In this document: one piece after another, positions 23,441-36,504 of the stretch
How the letters are laid out: each line of letters opens with the position of its first letter
Position numbering within the stretch: the stretch's first letter is position 1
NCBI GenBank assembly: GCA_002710725.1
Contig: PAKT01000021.1
Coordinates: 1 to 37,011 of the forward strand
Origin: Spongiibacteraceae bacterium
GTDB lineage: Bacteria > Pseudomonadota > Gammaproteobacteria > Pseudomonadales > Spongiibacteraceae
DNA: 37,011 nt
Direction of reading: 5' to 3'
Translations under genes and position numbers: made by a program
Notes under the pieces: model-generated
Seen by the model: the letters and a program-made list of their open reading frames with translations, nothing else
What the model was told of the DNA's origin: nothing
Databases searched by the model: none

Positions 23441-26994
<3,554 letters not shown>

Positions 26995-28278: not shown

Positions 28279-29694
28279 TCAGGTGGTCAGAGAGCGCAGC
28301 AGGTTCTGATAGTCTTCGCGAATGTCGGCACTGGTCTCGCGCAACTCTTTGATTTTTCGACAGGCGTGCAAGACCGTCGTATGGTCACGACCGCCGAAAC
28401 CGTCGCCAATTTCCGGCAGACTCTGGTTAGTCAGCTCCTTAGCCAAGGCCATCGCCAACTGTCGAGGCCGGGCTACGGAGCGACTGCGCCGCTTGGAGGT
28501 GAGGTCGGCCACCTTGATTTTGTAGTACTCGGCAACCGTGCGCTGAATATTGTCGACACTGACCTGCTTGTCCTGCAGAGCCAGCAGATCCTTCAAGGAC
28601 TCTCGAATCAGGGGTATATCAATCGAGCGCGCCATAAAGCGGGCGCTGGCGATCACTCGCTTCAATGCGCCTTCCAGCTCGCGCACATTGGAGCGAACCC
28701 GCTGACCAATAAAGAAGGCCGCATCCTGGGGCAGATCAATTTTTTCCTGCTCCGCCTTCTTCATCAGAATCGCCACCCGGGTTTCCAGTTCCGGCGGTTC
28801 AACGGCTACCGTCAGCCCCCAGCCAAAGCGAGATTTGAGGCGCTCTTCCAGGCCGTTGATTTCTTTCGGGTAGCGATCGCAGGTCAAAATCATTTGCTGA
28901 CCGCCTTCAAGCAGGGCGTTGAAGGTATGGAAAAACTCTTCCTGGGAGCGATCTTTATTCGCAAAAAACTGAATATCATCAATCAGCAGTGCATCGACGC
29001 TGCGGTAATAGCGCTTGAACTCATTGATAGCGTTGAGCGACAGGGCCTTGACCATATCTGCAACAAAACGCTCGGAATGCAGATAGACAATTTTGGCATC
29101 CGGCTTGTGCTTAAGCATGGCGTTACCCACCGCATGCATAAGGTGAGTCTTGCCCAGACCAACCCCACCGTAGAGAAACACCGGGTTGTAGGCCTGACCC
29201 GGGTTTTCCGCCACCTGCATGGCCGCCGCCCGAGCAAGCTGATTGGATTTACCTTCTACAAAAGTGTCAAAGGTATGATTTTCTATCAGTGAACTCTGGT
29301 GCCGAATACCACCTTCCACCTCAACCCGCCGTACCCTCGCCGGTCTTGAGGCCTGCGGTTGCGGTTCCACTGCGGGTCGGGGCGCAGGTTCGGGCCGTGG
29401 AGCGCTCTGGGTAGCAATGGGTGCCGGACTTCCTATGGGGCGAATCGGCGCGCGCGCACCAATATCCACCACCACATCGCAACCGGGCTGAGTGCTGACC
29501 TCGCTGACAATCTGAGAAATCCGGTCCAGATAACGATCAACAACCCAGTCCTTGATAAAACGGTTAGGCGCTAACAGTTGCAGCTGGCTGCCATTGGCAA
29601 CCGCCCGCAAAGGTCGAATCCAGGTGTTAAACTGTTGGGATGGCAACTCGCTCTGCAAGTAATTGAGACACTGTTCCCAAGCGGCTTCCGGCAC
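28279..29694 (-). CDS. dnaA: Chromosomal replication initiator protein DnaA
   Basis: 471 aa, GTG start; '[19 protein letters not shown]', '[11 protein letters not shown]', C-terminal '[20 protein letters not shown]'. Confidence 0.99.
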
Positions 29695-29731
29695 TGCAAC
29701 CTCTCCTGCCTTGTTATCGTTTTAATTGTTA

Positions 29732-30357
<626 letters not shown>

Positions 30358-30386
30358 TCGGGCATTCGCGATGGTCATCCAGCACC

Positions 30387-30788
30387 GTGACGAACGCAGG
30401 TTTTGGAAAAGCGTCACGGTTGCTGAACGCACGGGATTTCAAATCAGTCTTTGATAATGCCCGCCTGAAGGTTTCCTCCCCGGAACTCCTGTTTCTCGCT
30501 GTACCCAATCAACTCCCCCACGCCCGCCTTGGTCTGGTTATTGCCAAGAAGAACGTCCGCCTTGCGGTGCAACGCAATCGGGTCAAACGCATCATTCGTG
30601 AAAGCTTTCGCCAGCAACAGGTCATCACCGGCCTGGATATCGTAGTGCTTGCGCGCAGAGGATTGGATACACTAGACAACCCTCAGCTTCACGACAGTTG
30701 CAACCAACTGTGGAAGCAACTTCAACGTCGCGTCGAAAAGCAGGCGCGCCGGCAGCAGCAGGAAGATGAAGCCAAGTCATGCGACTGA
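30387..30788 (+). CDS. rnpA: Ribonuclease P protein component
   Basis: '[21 protein letters not shown]...[28 protein letters not shown]'; GTG at 30387 is the likely start (the listed ORF from 30210 runs across rpmH). Confidence 0.93.
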
Positions 30789-31033
30789 TACTGACAGCCC
30801 TGATTCGACTTTACCGCTATGCCATCAGCCCAATGATGGCCAGTCACTGTCGCTTTCACCCCAGCTGTTCCCAATACGCCCTTGAGGCCATAGAGCATCA
30901 CGGCAGTCTTCGCGGCGGCTGGCTGGCCCCCCGCCGGCTCTGTCGCTGCCATCCCTTTAACCCCGGCGGCTACGACCCAGTGCCTGCCGGGAAAACCCAA
31001 ATCAAACCTTCAACGCAGGCATCTCAGTCATAA
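30779..31033 (+). CDS. yidD: Membrane protein insertion efficiency factor YidD
   Basis: '[61 protein letters not shown]'. Confidence 0.97.
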
Positions 31034-32703
31034 TGGATATACAACGCACCTTGCTGATCGCCGCGATCGCGGTACTGTCGTTTATGCTGGTCGTGGAATG
31101 GGCCGCATTCCGCCAGCAGGAACCCGCCGCCATCAGCGCCCAGGCCGATTCCACCCAAACCCCGGCCAGAGCAGCGGCTCAATCCTCCGGTGAAGATATT
31201 CCGGAAGTCAGCTCAACAGCGACTGAACAGGATGCCGAACTCATATCCAGCCACGGCAGCGATACCGTCAGCGTCAGCACCGATGTGTTAGAGCTGACCA
31301 TCGATCTCTCGGGCGGCGATATTATTTATGCCGCACTGCCAAAACATCACGCAGAGATTGATACGCCGGAGCAGCCCTTCGTCATTCTCGAACAGAATCG
31401 CCGGCGCGAATACATCGCCCAAAGCGGTCTGATCGGTAAAAACGGCACCGATACCCGCGACGGTCGCCCCACCTTTGTTACCGAAAACGCCAGCTACCAG
31501 CTCAGCGACGGTCAGGACGAACTGACCGTGACCCTGGCCTATGGTCAAAGTCGCGATATCACCATCTATAAACACTATCGCTTCAAGCGCGGCTCCTACC
31601 TTGTCGAAATGGACTACGAAATAGACAATCGCAGTGATGAACAGTGGCAGGGTGTGCTGTTTACCCAGCTAAAGCGCGACAACAGTGAAGACCCGGCCAC
31701 CCAGGACAGCGGCATGATGGGCATGCAGCCTTTTCTCGGTGTGGGCTATCGCACATCGGAAGAGCGCTTTGAAAAGCTCGCCTTCGACAAAATGCGCGAC
31801 AAGCCCCTCAAGTTGGAAATGCAGGGCGGCTGGATCGCGATGATCCAGCATTACTTCCTCAGCGCCTGGGTTCCACCCGCGGAGCAACAGAACTTTTTCT
31901 CCACCTCGGTCACCCGCAGTGGCGACAATATTGCCCGCTATACCTCGGCACCTCAGGTGGTAGAACCCAAATCCACCGGCCATATGACTGCCCGGCTGTA
32001 TATCGGACCGAAAGATCAGTACGCCCTGCAGGAAATATCCGCGGGGCTGGAGTTGAGTGTCGACTACGGCTGGCTGTGGTGGATAGCCCAGCCCCTGTTC
32101 TGGCTCCTGACCCAGATTCACAAGCTGGTGGGGAACTGGGGTCTGGCTATTATCGGCGTCACCCTGCTGGTGAAGATTGTCTTCTTCCAGCTCAATGCCA
32201 CCGCCTTCCGCTCCATGGCCAATATGCGCCGTGTACAACCCAAGCTGCTCGAAATTCGCGAGCGCCACGCCGACGACCGCCAGAAACAGTCTCAGGCAAT
32301 GATGGAGCTCTACAAGAAAGAGAAGATCAATCCGCTCGGTGGCTGCCTGCCCATTTTGGTGCAAATGCCGGTCTTTATCGCCCTGTACTGGGTGCTGATG
32401 GAAAGTGTAGAGCTGCGCCACGCGCCATTCTTCGGCTGGATCAATGACCTGTCGGCGATGGACCCTTACTTTATTCTGCCGATCATCATGGGCGCTTCCA
32501 TGTTTGTTCAGCAGAAACTCAACCCGCCGCCGCCCGATCCGATGCAGGCCAAAGTCATGCAGTGGCTGCCGGTGATCTTTACCTTCTTCTTCCTGTTCTT
32601 CCCGGCAGGTCTGGTGCTGTACTGGGTCGTCAACAACCTGCTGTCCATCGCCCAGCAGTACATTATTACCCGCAGTATTGAGAAAAACGCAGCCAAAAGC
32701 TGA
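31033..32703 (+). CDS. yidC: Membrane protein insertase YidC
   Basis: 556 aa; '[20 protein letters not shown]', 'NWGLAIIGVTLLVKIVFFQLNATAFRSMANMRRVQPK', 'PLGGCLPILVQMPVFIALYWVL'. Confidence 0.99.
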   Translation: MDIQRTLLIAAIAVLSFMLVVEWAAFRQQEPAAISAQADSTQTPARAAAQSSGEDIPEVSSTATEQDAELISSHGSDTVSVSTDVLELTIDLSGGDIIYAALPKHHAEIDTPEQPFVILEQNRRREYIAQSGLIGKNGTDTRDGRPTFVTENASYQLSDGQDELTVTLAYGQSRDITIYKHYRFKRGSYLVEMDYEIDNRSDEQWQGVLFTQLKRDNSEDPATQDSGMMGMQPFLGVGYRTSEERFEKLAFDKMRDKPLKLEMQGGWIAMIQHYFLSAWVPPAEQQNFFSTSVTRSGDNIARYTSAPQVVEPKSTGHMTARLYIGPKDQYALQEISAGLELSVDYGWLWWIAQPLFWLLTQIHKLVGNWGLAIIGVTLLVKIVFFQLNATAFRSMANMRRVQPKLLEIRERHADDRQKQSQAMMELYKKEKINPLGGCLPILVQMPVFIALYWVLMESVELRHAPFFGWINDLSAMDPYFILPIIMGASMFVQQKLNPPPPDPMQAKVMQWLPVIFTFFFLFFPAGLVLYWVVNNLLSIAQQYIITRSIEKNAAKS

Positions 32704-34059
32704 ATGAACGTTCACACCGACACCATCGCCGCCATCGCCACCCCGGCTGGGCGGGGTGGCGTCGGCGTTATTCGTATTTCCGGCCCCAAGTGTCTGTCCA
32801 TCGCCCAGGCCATTCTTAATAACAAAACGCTTAAGCCGCGGTACGCACACTTCTCTCAGTTCTATGCCGCATCTAACACTTCAATTGAGGCGATAGACAG
32901 CGGCCTCGCCCTGTATTTTCCCGGACCAAATTCCTTTACCGGCGAAGACGTACTGGAACTGCAGGGTCATGGCGGCCCGGTAGTTTTACAATTGTTGCTG
33001 CGCGAAATAGTCCGGCTCGGTGCACGTCAGGCAAAGCCCGGCGAGTTTTCCGAGCGGGCTTTTCTCAACGACAAAATCGATCTGGCCCAGGCTGAAGCCA
33101 TTGCCGATCTTATCGACAGTGCCTCAGAACAGGCGGCAAAAAATGCCGTTCGTTCGCTGGAAGGGGAGTTCAGCCGCCGCGTTCACGATCTGGTCGAGGC
33201 CTTGATTCACCTGCGCATGTACGTGGAAGCGGCAATCGATTTTCCCGAAGAAGAAGTGGATTTTCTCAGCGACGAAACCGTTCGCCTCGGATTGGAAAAT
33301 CTCGATAGAGATCTAACTACCTTATTAAGCAGCGCAAAACAGGGGGCTCTGTTGCGCGAAGGCATGACCGTGGCCATTGCCGGCAAACCCAACGCGGGAA
33401 AATCCAGTCTGCTTAACGCGCTGGCTGGACGCGAGTCGGCCATTGTCACCGATATCGCCGGCACCACCCGCGACGTGCTGCGCGAGACCATTCTGATCGA
33501 AGGTATGCCGCTGCATGTCATCGATACTGCTGGTTTGCGCGACAGCGTCGATCAGGTAGAACAGGAAGGCATTCGCCGCGCCTGGCAGGTGATTGACGAC
33601 GCCGATCGCATTCTGCTGGTAATCGATTCCACCGACCCACACAGCGCCGACGATCTTCTTGCTCAATTCCAAAGCCACCGCGACAAGCTGACCGTTATCC
33701 ACAACAAGGCGGACCTGTCCGGCCTGTCGATCGGTGAGCGCGACAACGGTCATGCGCTAAACCTTTCAGCCAAGGCGCAAGCGGGTATTGATCGCTTGCG
33801 AGAGCACCTGAAAGACTGCATGGGCTATCACGGCGGCAGCGACAGCCAGTTTACGGCCCGCCAGCGCCATATCGATGCCTTGCTCGACGCCAAACTGCAT
33901 TTTGATCAGGGCAGAGAGCAACTGATGGTTTACCGTGCCGGTGAGCTGCTGGCTGAAGAATTGCGCCTCAGCCAGAATGCTCTGAGCAGCATTACCGGCG
34001 AATTTACCCCCGACGATCTGCTAGGAAAAATCTTTTCCAGTTTCTGTATTGGCAAATAG
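32704..34059 (+). CDS. mnmE: tRNA uridine-5-carboxymethylaminomethyl(34) synthesis GTPase MnmE
   Basis: 451 aa; '[22 protein letters not shown]', G1 '[14 protein letters not shown]', 'DTAGLR', C-terminal 'FCIGK'. Confidence 0.99.
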
Positions 34060-34218
34060 CCTTTCTCTAATCCTACCAAGCGCTGTAAAACCAACCCCGG
34101 ACTCCATCGGCAAACAGGCGTTTATCTCTCTACTAGCGTCACTTTCCAGGTCGATTACGATTCTCAACCCTTAAACCTGATCAAATAGTCACCACAAGCC
34201 CTTAATTTTTTAACTTTT

Positions 34219-34541
34219 TTGCTGTGAATTGAGGGCGCACAGCACGAGGAAAGACTGTGCATAACTTGGGGGATAAGTTTTAAACCTGTGGACGGAAAAT
34301 CAGTACAAATACTTACCCCCAAACCGTTCATGGCTTGTCACCATCCGGGGAACAGCTTTACAAGGGGTTTGTACGCCCACTTGTTAAGTACTTTAAATAC
34401 ATTAAAAACAAAAGCTTATAGAGGTTATCCACATTTTTACGTCAACTAATAATTACAACAACAATAATCTTTCTTACTTTCTCTTCTAGATAAGATTTTT
34501 ATTTAATAACTTTTTTAAAAACCAGCCCTGATTAAATTTTC
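34219..34541. other. Second oriC-like region (mnmE-mnmG intergenic): DnaA boxes plus AT-rich tract
   Basis: Perfect DnaA box TTATCCACA at 34425-34433, TGTGCATAA at 34256-34264, near-match GGGGGATAA at 34268-34276, CCTGTGGACGG at 34285-34295; AT-rich 34437-34541. Confidence 0.6.
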
Positions 34542-34611
34542 ACCAGCTTATTGCAGTGCGAAATTCGCCCCGTATAATCACACTCCCTTTCAGCTCAGAG
34601 CAGGATTTCCC

Positions 34612-36504
34612 GTGGATTACCCCGAGCAATTCGACGTTATCGTCATCGGCGGCGGCCACGCTGGTACCGAAGCGTGCCTGGCGGCGGCGCGCATGGGTGC
34701 TAAAACCCTGCTGCTGACCCATAACATCGAAACGCTGGGCCAAATGTCCTGCAATCCTGCGATCGGGGGCATTGGCAAAAGCCACCTGGTCAAGGAAATC
34801 GATGCCCTCGGCGGCGCCATGGCCCTAGCCACCGATCGCGGCGGGATACAGTTTCGGGTTTTGAACGCACGCAAAGGCCCGGCGGTGCGCGCGACCCGGG
34901 CCCAGGCCGACCGGGCGCTGTACAAGGCCGCGATTCGCGAAATACTGGAAAACCAGCCCAATCTGTCGATTTTCCAGCAAGCCGTTGACGACCTGATCGT
35001 CGAGGGTGAGCGGGTTTGCGGCGCTATCACCAACACGGGTATTCGCTTTCGGGCGAAAACCGTCGTGCTGACAACCGGAACTTTTCTGGGCGGCAAAATC
35101 CATATCGGTCTGGATAATCACAGCGGCGGCCGCGCCGGCGACCCACCGGCGATCGCCCTGGCCGCGCGTCTGCGCGAGCTGCCCTTGCGCGTCGATCGGC
35201 TGAAAACGGGCACGCCACCGCGCATCGACGCCAAGTCGGTGAATTTCGAAGGCCTGCAGGAGCAGTGGGGTGATCAGCCCGAGCCAGTGATGTCCTATCT
35301 CGGCAGTCTCGACCTGCACCCGCGTCAGACCTGCTGCTGGATTACCCACACCAACGAGCGCACTCACGAAATCATTCAGGGCGGGCTGGATCGCTCGCCC
35401 ATGTACACCGGCGTGATCGAAGGCGTCGGGCCGCGTTATTGCCCGTCCATCGAAGACAAAGTTCACCGCTTTGCGGACAAAAACAGCCACCAGATTTTTA
35501 TCGAGCCGGAGGGGCTGAATACCCACGAGCTTTACCCCAACGGCATCTCCACCAGCCTGCCGTTTGATGTGCAAATGCAATTGGTGCGCTCGATCAAGGG
35601 CTTTGAAAATGCCCATATCACGCGCCCGGGCTACGCCATTGAATACGACTACTTTGACCCTCGGGATCTGAAAACCTCCCTTGAAACCAAGGTCATTGAA
35701 AATCTCTTCTTCGCCGGTCAGATCAATGGCACGACCGGTTACGAAGAAGCGGGTGCCCAGGGCCTGCTGGCGGGTCTGAACGCCGCCCTGAAAGCGGCCG
35801 ACAAAGACACCTGGTTTCCCAAGCGCGATGAGGCCTACATTGGTGTGCTGGTCGACGATCTGATCACCATGGGCACGCTGGAGCCCTACCGGATGTTCAC
35901 CTCCCGTGCCGAATACCGTTTGCTGCTGCGCGAAGACAATGCCGATACCCGGCTGACCGAAAAGGGCCGGGAACTAGGTCTGGTGGACGATGCGCGTTGG
36001 GCAGCCTACTGCGACAAGCGCGAAACGGTGGAGCGCGAACGTCAGCGCATGGCCAGCACCTGGATTCAGCCGAATACCCCGGAAGCTGACATTCTGAATG
36101 GCAAAATCCCGACACCGATCAGCCGCGAACACAACCTGCTCGATCTTCTCAAGCGTCCTGAGCTAAACTACTCAGACGTAGCAAGCCTTAAAGGAGAAGC
36201 AAGCGCTAACTTACAGGTTGCGGAACAGATCGAGATCGGTGTGAAGTACGCCGGCTATATCGACCGCCAGACCGAGGAAATCGAGCGCCTGCGGCGCTTT
36301 GAGCACACCAGCCTGCCGCTGGATTTCGACTATCAGACGGTCGAGGGTCTGTCGAACGAGATCAAACAGAAACTGTCCAGCGCGCGCCCGGAAACTCTGG
36401 CCCAGGCCTCGCGGATTCCCGGCGTGACGCCGGCGGCGGTTTCACTCTTGCTGATTTACCTGAAAAAACGGGGCCTGCTCGATCGCAGCAGCAAAACGGC
36501 CTGA
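34612..36504 (+). CDS. mnmG: tRNA uridine-5-carboxymethylaminomethyl(34) synthesis enzyme MnmG (GidA)
   Basis: 630 aa, GTG start; '[23 protein letters not shown]', '[22 protein letters not shown]', '[23 protein letters not shown]'. Confidence 0.99.

Follow-up and report, generated by a model that had tools for sequence, protein, structure and literature searches.

The 552-bp intergenic region between mnmE and mnmG of a Spongiibacteraceae bacterium (positions 34060 to 34611, plus strand) combines DnaA boxes, an AT-rich tract and E. coli-like spacing, and we propose, with a probability of roughly 0.66, that the chromosome has an origin of the mnmG-adjacent, E. coli-layout type here, which is probably also the main one in the family. 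Following Pseudomonas, the usual practice in this order is to assign the origin to dnaA-rpmH, and none of the open-license papers found and examined attributes an mnmG origin to the marine families of the order. Under our proposal, replication forks in Spongiibacteraceae, and probably in several neighboring families, would long have started at mnmG, contradicting the usual assumption; near the origin, the annotation of genomes and growth estimates drawn from copy number would need correction, and the relation of the E. coli and Pseudomonas origin types would become testable in culturable bacteria such as Litorivivens lipolytica and Zhongshania.

The window, that is, the whole stretch of 37,011 bp analyzed here, is contig C21 of a 2.9-Mb, 118-contig, 71%-complete MAG, and chromosome-scale skew was therefore taken from relatives. 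Its minus strand carries dnaN-dnaA, followed on the plus strand by rpmH, rnpA, yidD, yidC, mnmE and mnmG. MnmG of the window is 96% identical to that of L. lipolytica (L001), and because the isolate genome of this species shows the same arrangement, the arrangement is not an assembly artefact. A perfect parS match (TGTTCCACGTGAAACA) occurs at 25916 to 25931 and a one-mismatch copy at 26558 to 26573; as sequence matches, the pair is consistent with an origin neighborhood.

Architecture of the mnmE-mnmG gap

The gap is delimited by the end of the mnmE ORF at 34059 and the GTG start of mnmG (gidA; 34612 to 36504, plus strand). It contains only two near-consensus DnaA boxes, both present as the initial annotation described them for a gap of about 550 bp. 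The perfect box TTATCCACA at 34425 to 34433 (plus strand, −187 from mnmG) is R1-like, and TTATGCACA at 34256 to 34264 (minus strand, reading TGTGCATAA, −356 from mnmG), which differs from the perfect box by one base, is R4-like. Two weak, half-matching words on the minus strand adjoin the R4-like box, namely TTATCCCCC at 34268 to 34276, whose surrounding GGGGATAAGTTTTAAA is kept across the genus, and CCGTCCACA at 34287 to 34295 (TGTGGACGG on the plus strand), where TGTGGACG is likewise kept. A Markov model built on the composition of the gap itself predicts 0.025 copies of TTATNCACA in it and gives a probability of 0.0004 for at least two.

GC content is 0.31 over 34400 to 34599 and falls to 0.17 in the poorest 60 bp, which start 152 bp before mnmG. 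The predicted unwinding element (about 34434 to 34530, T-rich on the minus strand) carries TTATTGTTGTTGTAATTATTAG beside the R1-like box, with similar words in L001, L029 and L062. TTGT and TTATT words are bound single-stranded by E. coli DnaA; the T-rich strand beside the R1-like box has three TTGT and two TTATT, and TT[AG]T words occur there 6 times in 60 bp vs 1.4 expected. The AT-rich tract had been placed directly before mnmG; the tract itself is present, but about 80 bp separate it from the gene. This spacer includes a TATAAT at 34573 to 34578 (plus strand), a string match that is the probable −10 element of the mnmG promoter and lies about 140 bp from the nearest DnaA box. A promoter and terminator scan gave no result and did not score this TATAAT. 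The gap has one GATC, and no IHF consensus site was found in it or in the dnaA-rpmH gap.

Conservation of the region in relatives

The 500 bp upstream of mnmG were compared in 78 loci from the window and related species. TTATNCACA occurs there 102 times, vs 2.3 expected, with no copy within the last 150 bp before mnmG in any of the 78 loci, and it is absent within 500 bp of mnmG in about 40% of them. The AT-richest stretch has a median start at −170, and TTGT/TTATT words number 280 on the predicted strand, where 162 are expected, and 64 on the other. Conservation in close relatives, set beforehand as a test, was observed directly: in L. lipolytica and UBA5047, which make up three genomes of the genus with the window, both boxes lie within 3 bp of their window positions. 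The R1-like box is at −189/−190 in L001 and L004, and the R4-like box at −358/−359 in the same two loci and at −348 in L070.

Directly at mnmG, Parahaliea maris (L022:8678-10000) lacks both an AT tract and a strict TTATNCACA box; it has an AT-rich, box-bearing gap after mnmE, separated from mnmG by an ORF, as if a gene had been inserted. Two records titled Verrucomicrobiaceae (L005) and Flavobacteriales (L073) encode MnmG proteins 80% and 73% identical to that of the window and are likely mislabelled or mixed bins.

Strand composition and fork direction

The rpmH-rnpA-yidD-yidC-mnmE block (30209 to 34059, plus strand) lies between the two candidate regions, and its strand composition discriminates between them, as it is leading if forks start at dnaA-rpmH and lagging if they start at mnmG. 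We used skews at fourfold sites, with each genome's own leading and lagging genes as calibration; such skew records the long-term average fork direction, not present use, and was uninformative when trained on the 37-kb window alone. As a control, the method placed E. coli oriC exactly.

All seven genomes tested in the sister genus favored mnmG; after allowing for variance between genes the margin was +8 to +20 ln units, and deflated site counts agreed with this preference. The change point fell at mnmG in G008 and G010; in G010 the optimum coincided precisely with the gap in front of mnmG and outscored dnaA-rpmH by 34 ln units, and the coarse whole-chromosome skew switched within that same 20-kb step. 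In the sister genus mnmE is separated from the region upstream of mnmG by three genes, and it is mnmG that the switch accompanies. This composition switch places the long-term start of forks in the sister genus at mnmG and not at dnaA-rpmH. By eye, the three intervening genes (L008:4838-9648 and the sister-genus genomes) encode a TonB-type receptor, a periplasmic binding protein and a hybrid sensor kinase, and their direction of transcription opposes the leftward fork. For G013 the best change point lay 16 kb right of mnmG, with mnmG still beating dnaA by 43; change points of G054, G063 and G066 were left out, as the best local one falls elsewhere in the stretch. In G056, with dnaA 39 kb away, the switch was at mnmG. 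In G025, where mnmG is 34 kb from dnaA and has neither boxes nor an AT tract, the skew pointed to dnaA. The initial annotation had taken dnaA-rpmH as the main origin and the mnmG region as a secondary one; skew in the sister genus and most other relatives speaks against this ranking, as it has forks starting at mnmG.

In the window's own genus the preference for mnmG was +3.4 ln units summed over three genomes, mostly from the window, the two relatives alone giving +0.4 and 0.0. Because this value is small, the case for a principal origin at mnmG in the window organism rests on the sister genus and the layout, and we infer that the two genera behave alike. A full codon-usage classifier, which is confounded by codon preference and noisier, gave +2.2 in the window's genus and mixed values in the sister genus (G008 −1.8, G015 +0.2). 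Among five Pseudomonas genomes, two leaned slightly to dnaA, two were near flat and one (G077) favored mnmG; given these mixed results, the skew test can go either way. G077, a genus relative of Pseudomonas fluvialis, gave +9.6 for mnmG with a lagging-like skew and, unlike the other four, has extra genes in its dnaA-mnmG block.

A natural contrast is provided by 27 relatives (Porticoccaceae, SAR92 and similar), in whose genomes the rpmH-rnpA-yidD-yidC-mnmE block is inverted between the two DnaA-box regions while the boxes stay at dnaA and the AT tract stays at mnmG (L007, L010, L015, L019, L020, L026-L030, L032-L034, L037-L040, L043, L049, L051, L057, L059, L062, L063, L069, L075 and L078). 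In colinear genomes yidC and mnmE together fell below leading-gene values in 27 of 29 cases, and in the 27 inverted genomes they were leading-like (P = 3e-7; the count of inverted genomes overstates independence, since they are largely one clade). This contrast supports an origin at mnmG, because an origin at dnaA-rpmH predicts the reverse.

Comparison with known origins

With mnmG read rightwards, E. coli K-12 oriC has R4 at −356 (minus), R1 at −176 (plus) and its AT minimum at −158; the corresponding positions in the window are −356 (minus), −187 (plus) and −152. As in the mnmG/gidA-mioC interval that holds E. coli oriC, the gap is directly upstream of mnmG, R4(−) and R1(+) keep their order and spacing, R1 adjoins the unwinding element, and R1 is separated from mnmG by an AT-rich element whose T-rich strand carries TTGT/TTATT words. 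The region had been labeled oriC-like; with order, orientation and spacing all following E. coli oriC and kept in relatives, the label is stronger than first claimed, and as an origin the region would be a further case of the known E. coli-layout type. Unlike in E. coli, the left neighbor is mnmE and not mioC, strong boxes are fewer, an IHF consensus is lacking, and dnaA is 4.5 kb away instead of about 40 kb. The single GATC is a further difference, as is the lack of SeqA: a search of 19 genomes, among them that of the window, recovered no SeqA, with a positive E. coli control. The window thus stands outside the Dam/SeqA-controlled subset (Enterobacterales and Shewanella), which is marked by many GATC sites and a SeqA gene, and the best reading is that an mnmG-adjacent oriC works here without Dam/SeqA control through GATC.

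The Shewanella mnmG region (L065-L067, L076, L077 and L080) likewise has boxes in the same zone upstream of mnmG, and in L076 dnaA-rpmH-mnmE is nearby and the skew also favors mnmG; unlike the window, Shewanella has 18 to 20 GATC in 500 bp and three to five perfect boxes. The window resembles Pseudomonas in that its dnaA-rpmH gap contains clustered boxes and an AT tract, the arrangement that defines the Pseudomonas-type oriC. That gap has up to seven boxes in Pseudomonas, where four of five genomes are flat or slightly dnaA-leaning, whereas the sister genus is strongly for mnmG. Two DnaA-box clusters near dnaA also recall the bipartite origins of Bacillus subtilis and Helicobacter pylori, where a spacer gene, in most cases dnaA, separates the two parts and the whole extends over up to about 2 kb (PMC4285127); in the window, by contrast, the clusters are separated by 4.5 kb that include rpmH-mnmE, and an AT-rich tract accompanies each of them.

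The dnaA-rpmH region and alternative explanations

The dnaA-rpmH gap (29695 to 30222) contains three DnaA boxes (29821 on the plus strand, 29940 and 29963 on the minus strand) and a tract even richer in AT, 4.3 to 4.6 kb from the mnmG-upstream boxes. The earlier view that both locations look origin-like, about 4.5 kb apart, thus holds, and with more boxes and lower GC this gap is at least as origin-like as the mnmG gap on composition alone. E. coli, with oriC about 40 kb from dnaA, keeps a DnaA box at −218 from dnaA, matching in orientation the window's box at −135, so boxes at dnaA are also expected for autoregulation. Control of dnaA is probably the main role of the dnaA-rpmH cluster, which may retain some capacity as an origin. 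Two other observations fall nearby: between the two origin-like regions, mnmE contains a perfect DnaA box in its coding sequence (33695 to 33703), and the sole match of an Rfam search of the window is AsdA, an antisense RNA of dnaA mRNA, within dnaA at 29092 to 29172 (52.5 bits vs a threshold of 52).

The initial annotation had offered a bipartite origin, a relic and a regulatory region, and these fare differently. That dnaA-rpmH is the working origin, with the mnmG region reduced to a relic or to a DnaA-responsive mnmG promoter and titration site, we regard as improbable: the greater number of boxes and lower GC at dnaA-rpmH, the placement of P. aeruginosa oriC beside dnaA (PMC3642087) and the indecisive skew of the window's genus speak for it, but the sister-genus skew, the inverted-block contrast and the conserved unwinding layout upstream of mnmG run counter to it. 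A relic should not keep the R4-R1 spacing and the TTGT/TTATT array, and a promoter role fits poorly with the distance from the nearest box to the likely −10 element. Chance occurrence of boxes in an AT-rich gap, as their being only two might suggest, was rejected with near certainty, being refuted by conservation: the gap itself gives P = 0.0004, the excess across relatives is 102 vs 2.3, and in three genomes of the genus the positions differ by no more than 3 bp.

A twin or bipartite arrangement keeps some standing. Here dnaA-rpmH and mnmE-mnmG would both initiate, or would work jointly, 4.5 kb from each other, as one split origin, and which of them dominates would vary by lineage. DnaA boxes and AT-rich tracts in both gaps, the intermediate block skew of the window's genus and the divergence between the sister genus (mnmG) and four of five Pseudomonas genomes (flat or dnaA-leaning) would fit, as would the two autonomously replicating elements on record for P. 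aeruginosa, only one of them essential according to a later paper's account of that work (PMC4403523, citing Jiang et al. 2006). We nevertheless hold it to be unlikely, as the fully lagging-like block of the sister genus is hard to reconcile with regular firing at dnaA-rpmH, and boxes at dnaA have the autoregulatory explanation given above. In a related and similarly tentative form, two complete origin modules at dnaA-rpmH and mnmG would flank the rpmH-mnmE block 4.5 kb apart, with the dominant module having changed between lineages; if true, this arrangement would be a living link between the Pseudomonas and E. coli origin types.

For the preferred reading, an E. coli-layout origin at mnmG, the layout suggests how initiation could proceed. 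DnaA would occupy the R4-like (34256) and R1-like (34425) boxes, and weak sites between them would let it build an oligomer that melts the AT-rich tract adjoining R1. The T-rich strand would then be held by DnaA at the TTGT/TTATT words, where the helicase would be loaded. The leftward fork would copy mnmE-yidC-rnpA-rpmH against transcription, and the rightward fork would copy mnmG-rsmG-parA co-directionally.

A further group of DnaA boxes was observed on another contig of the same genome (C23:10207-10417; L251:3207-3417), where three perfect boxes occur within 211 bp just upstream of an ORF for an RluA-like pseudouridine synthase, the last box overlapping the ORF start. Judged from its boxes, this trio is a candidate DnaA-titration or DARS/datA-like site.
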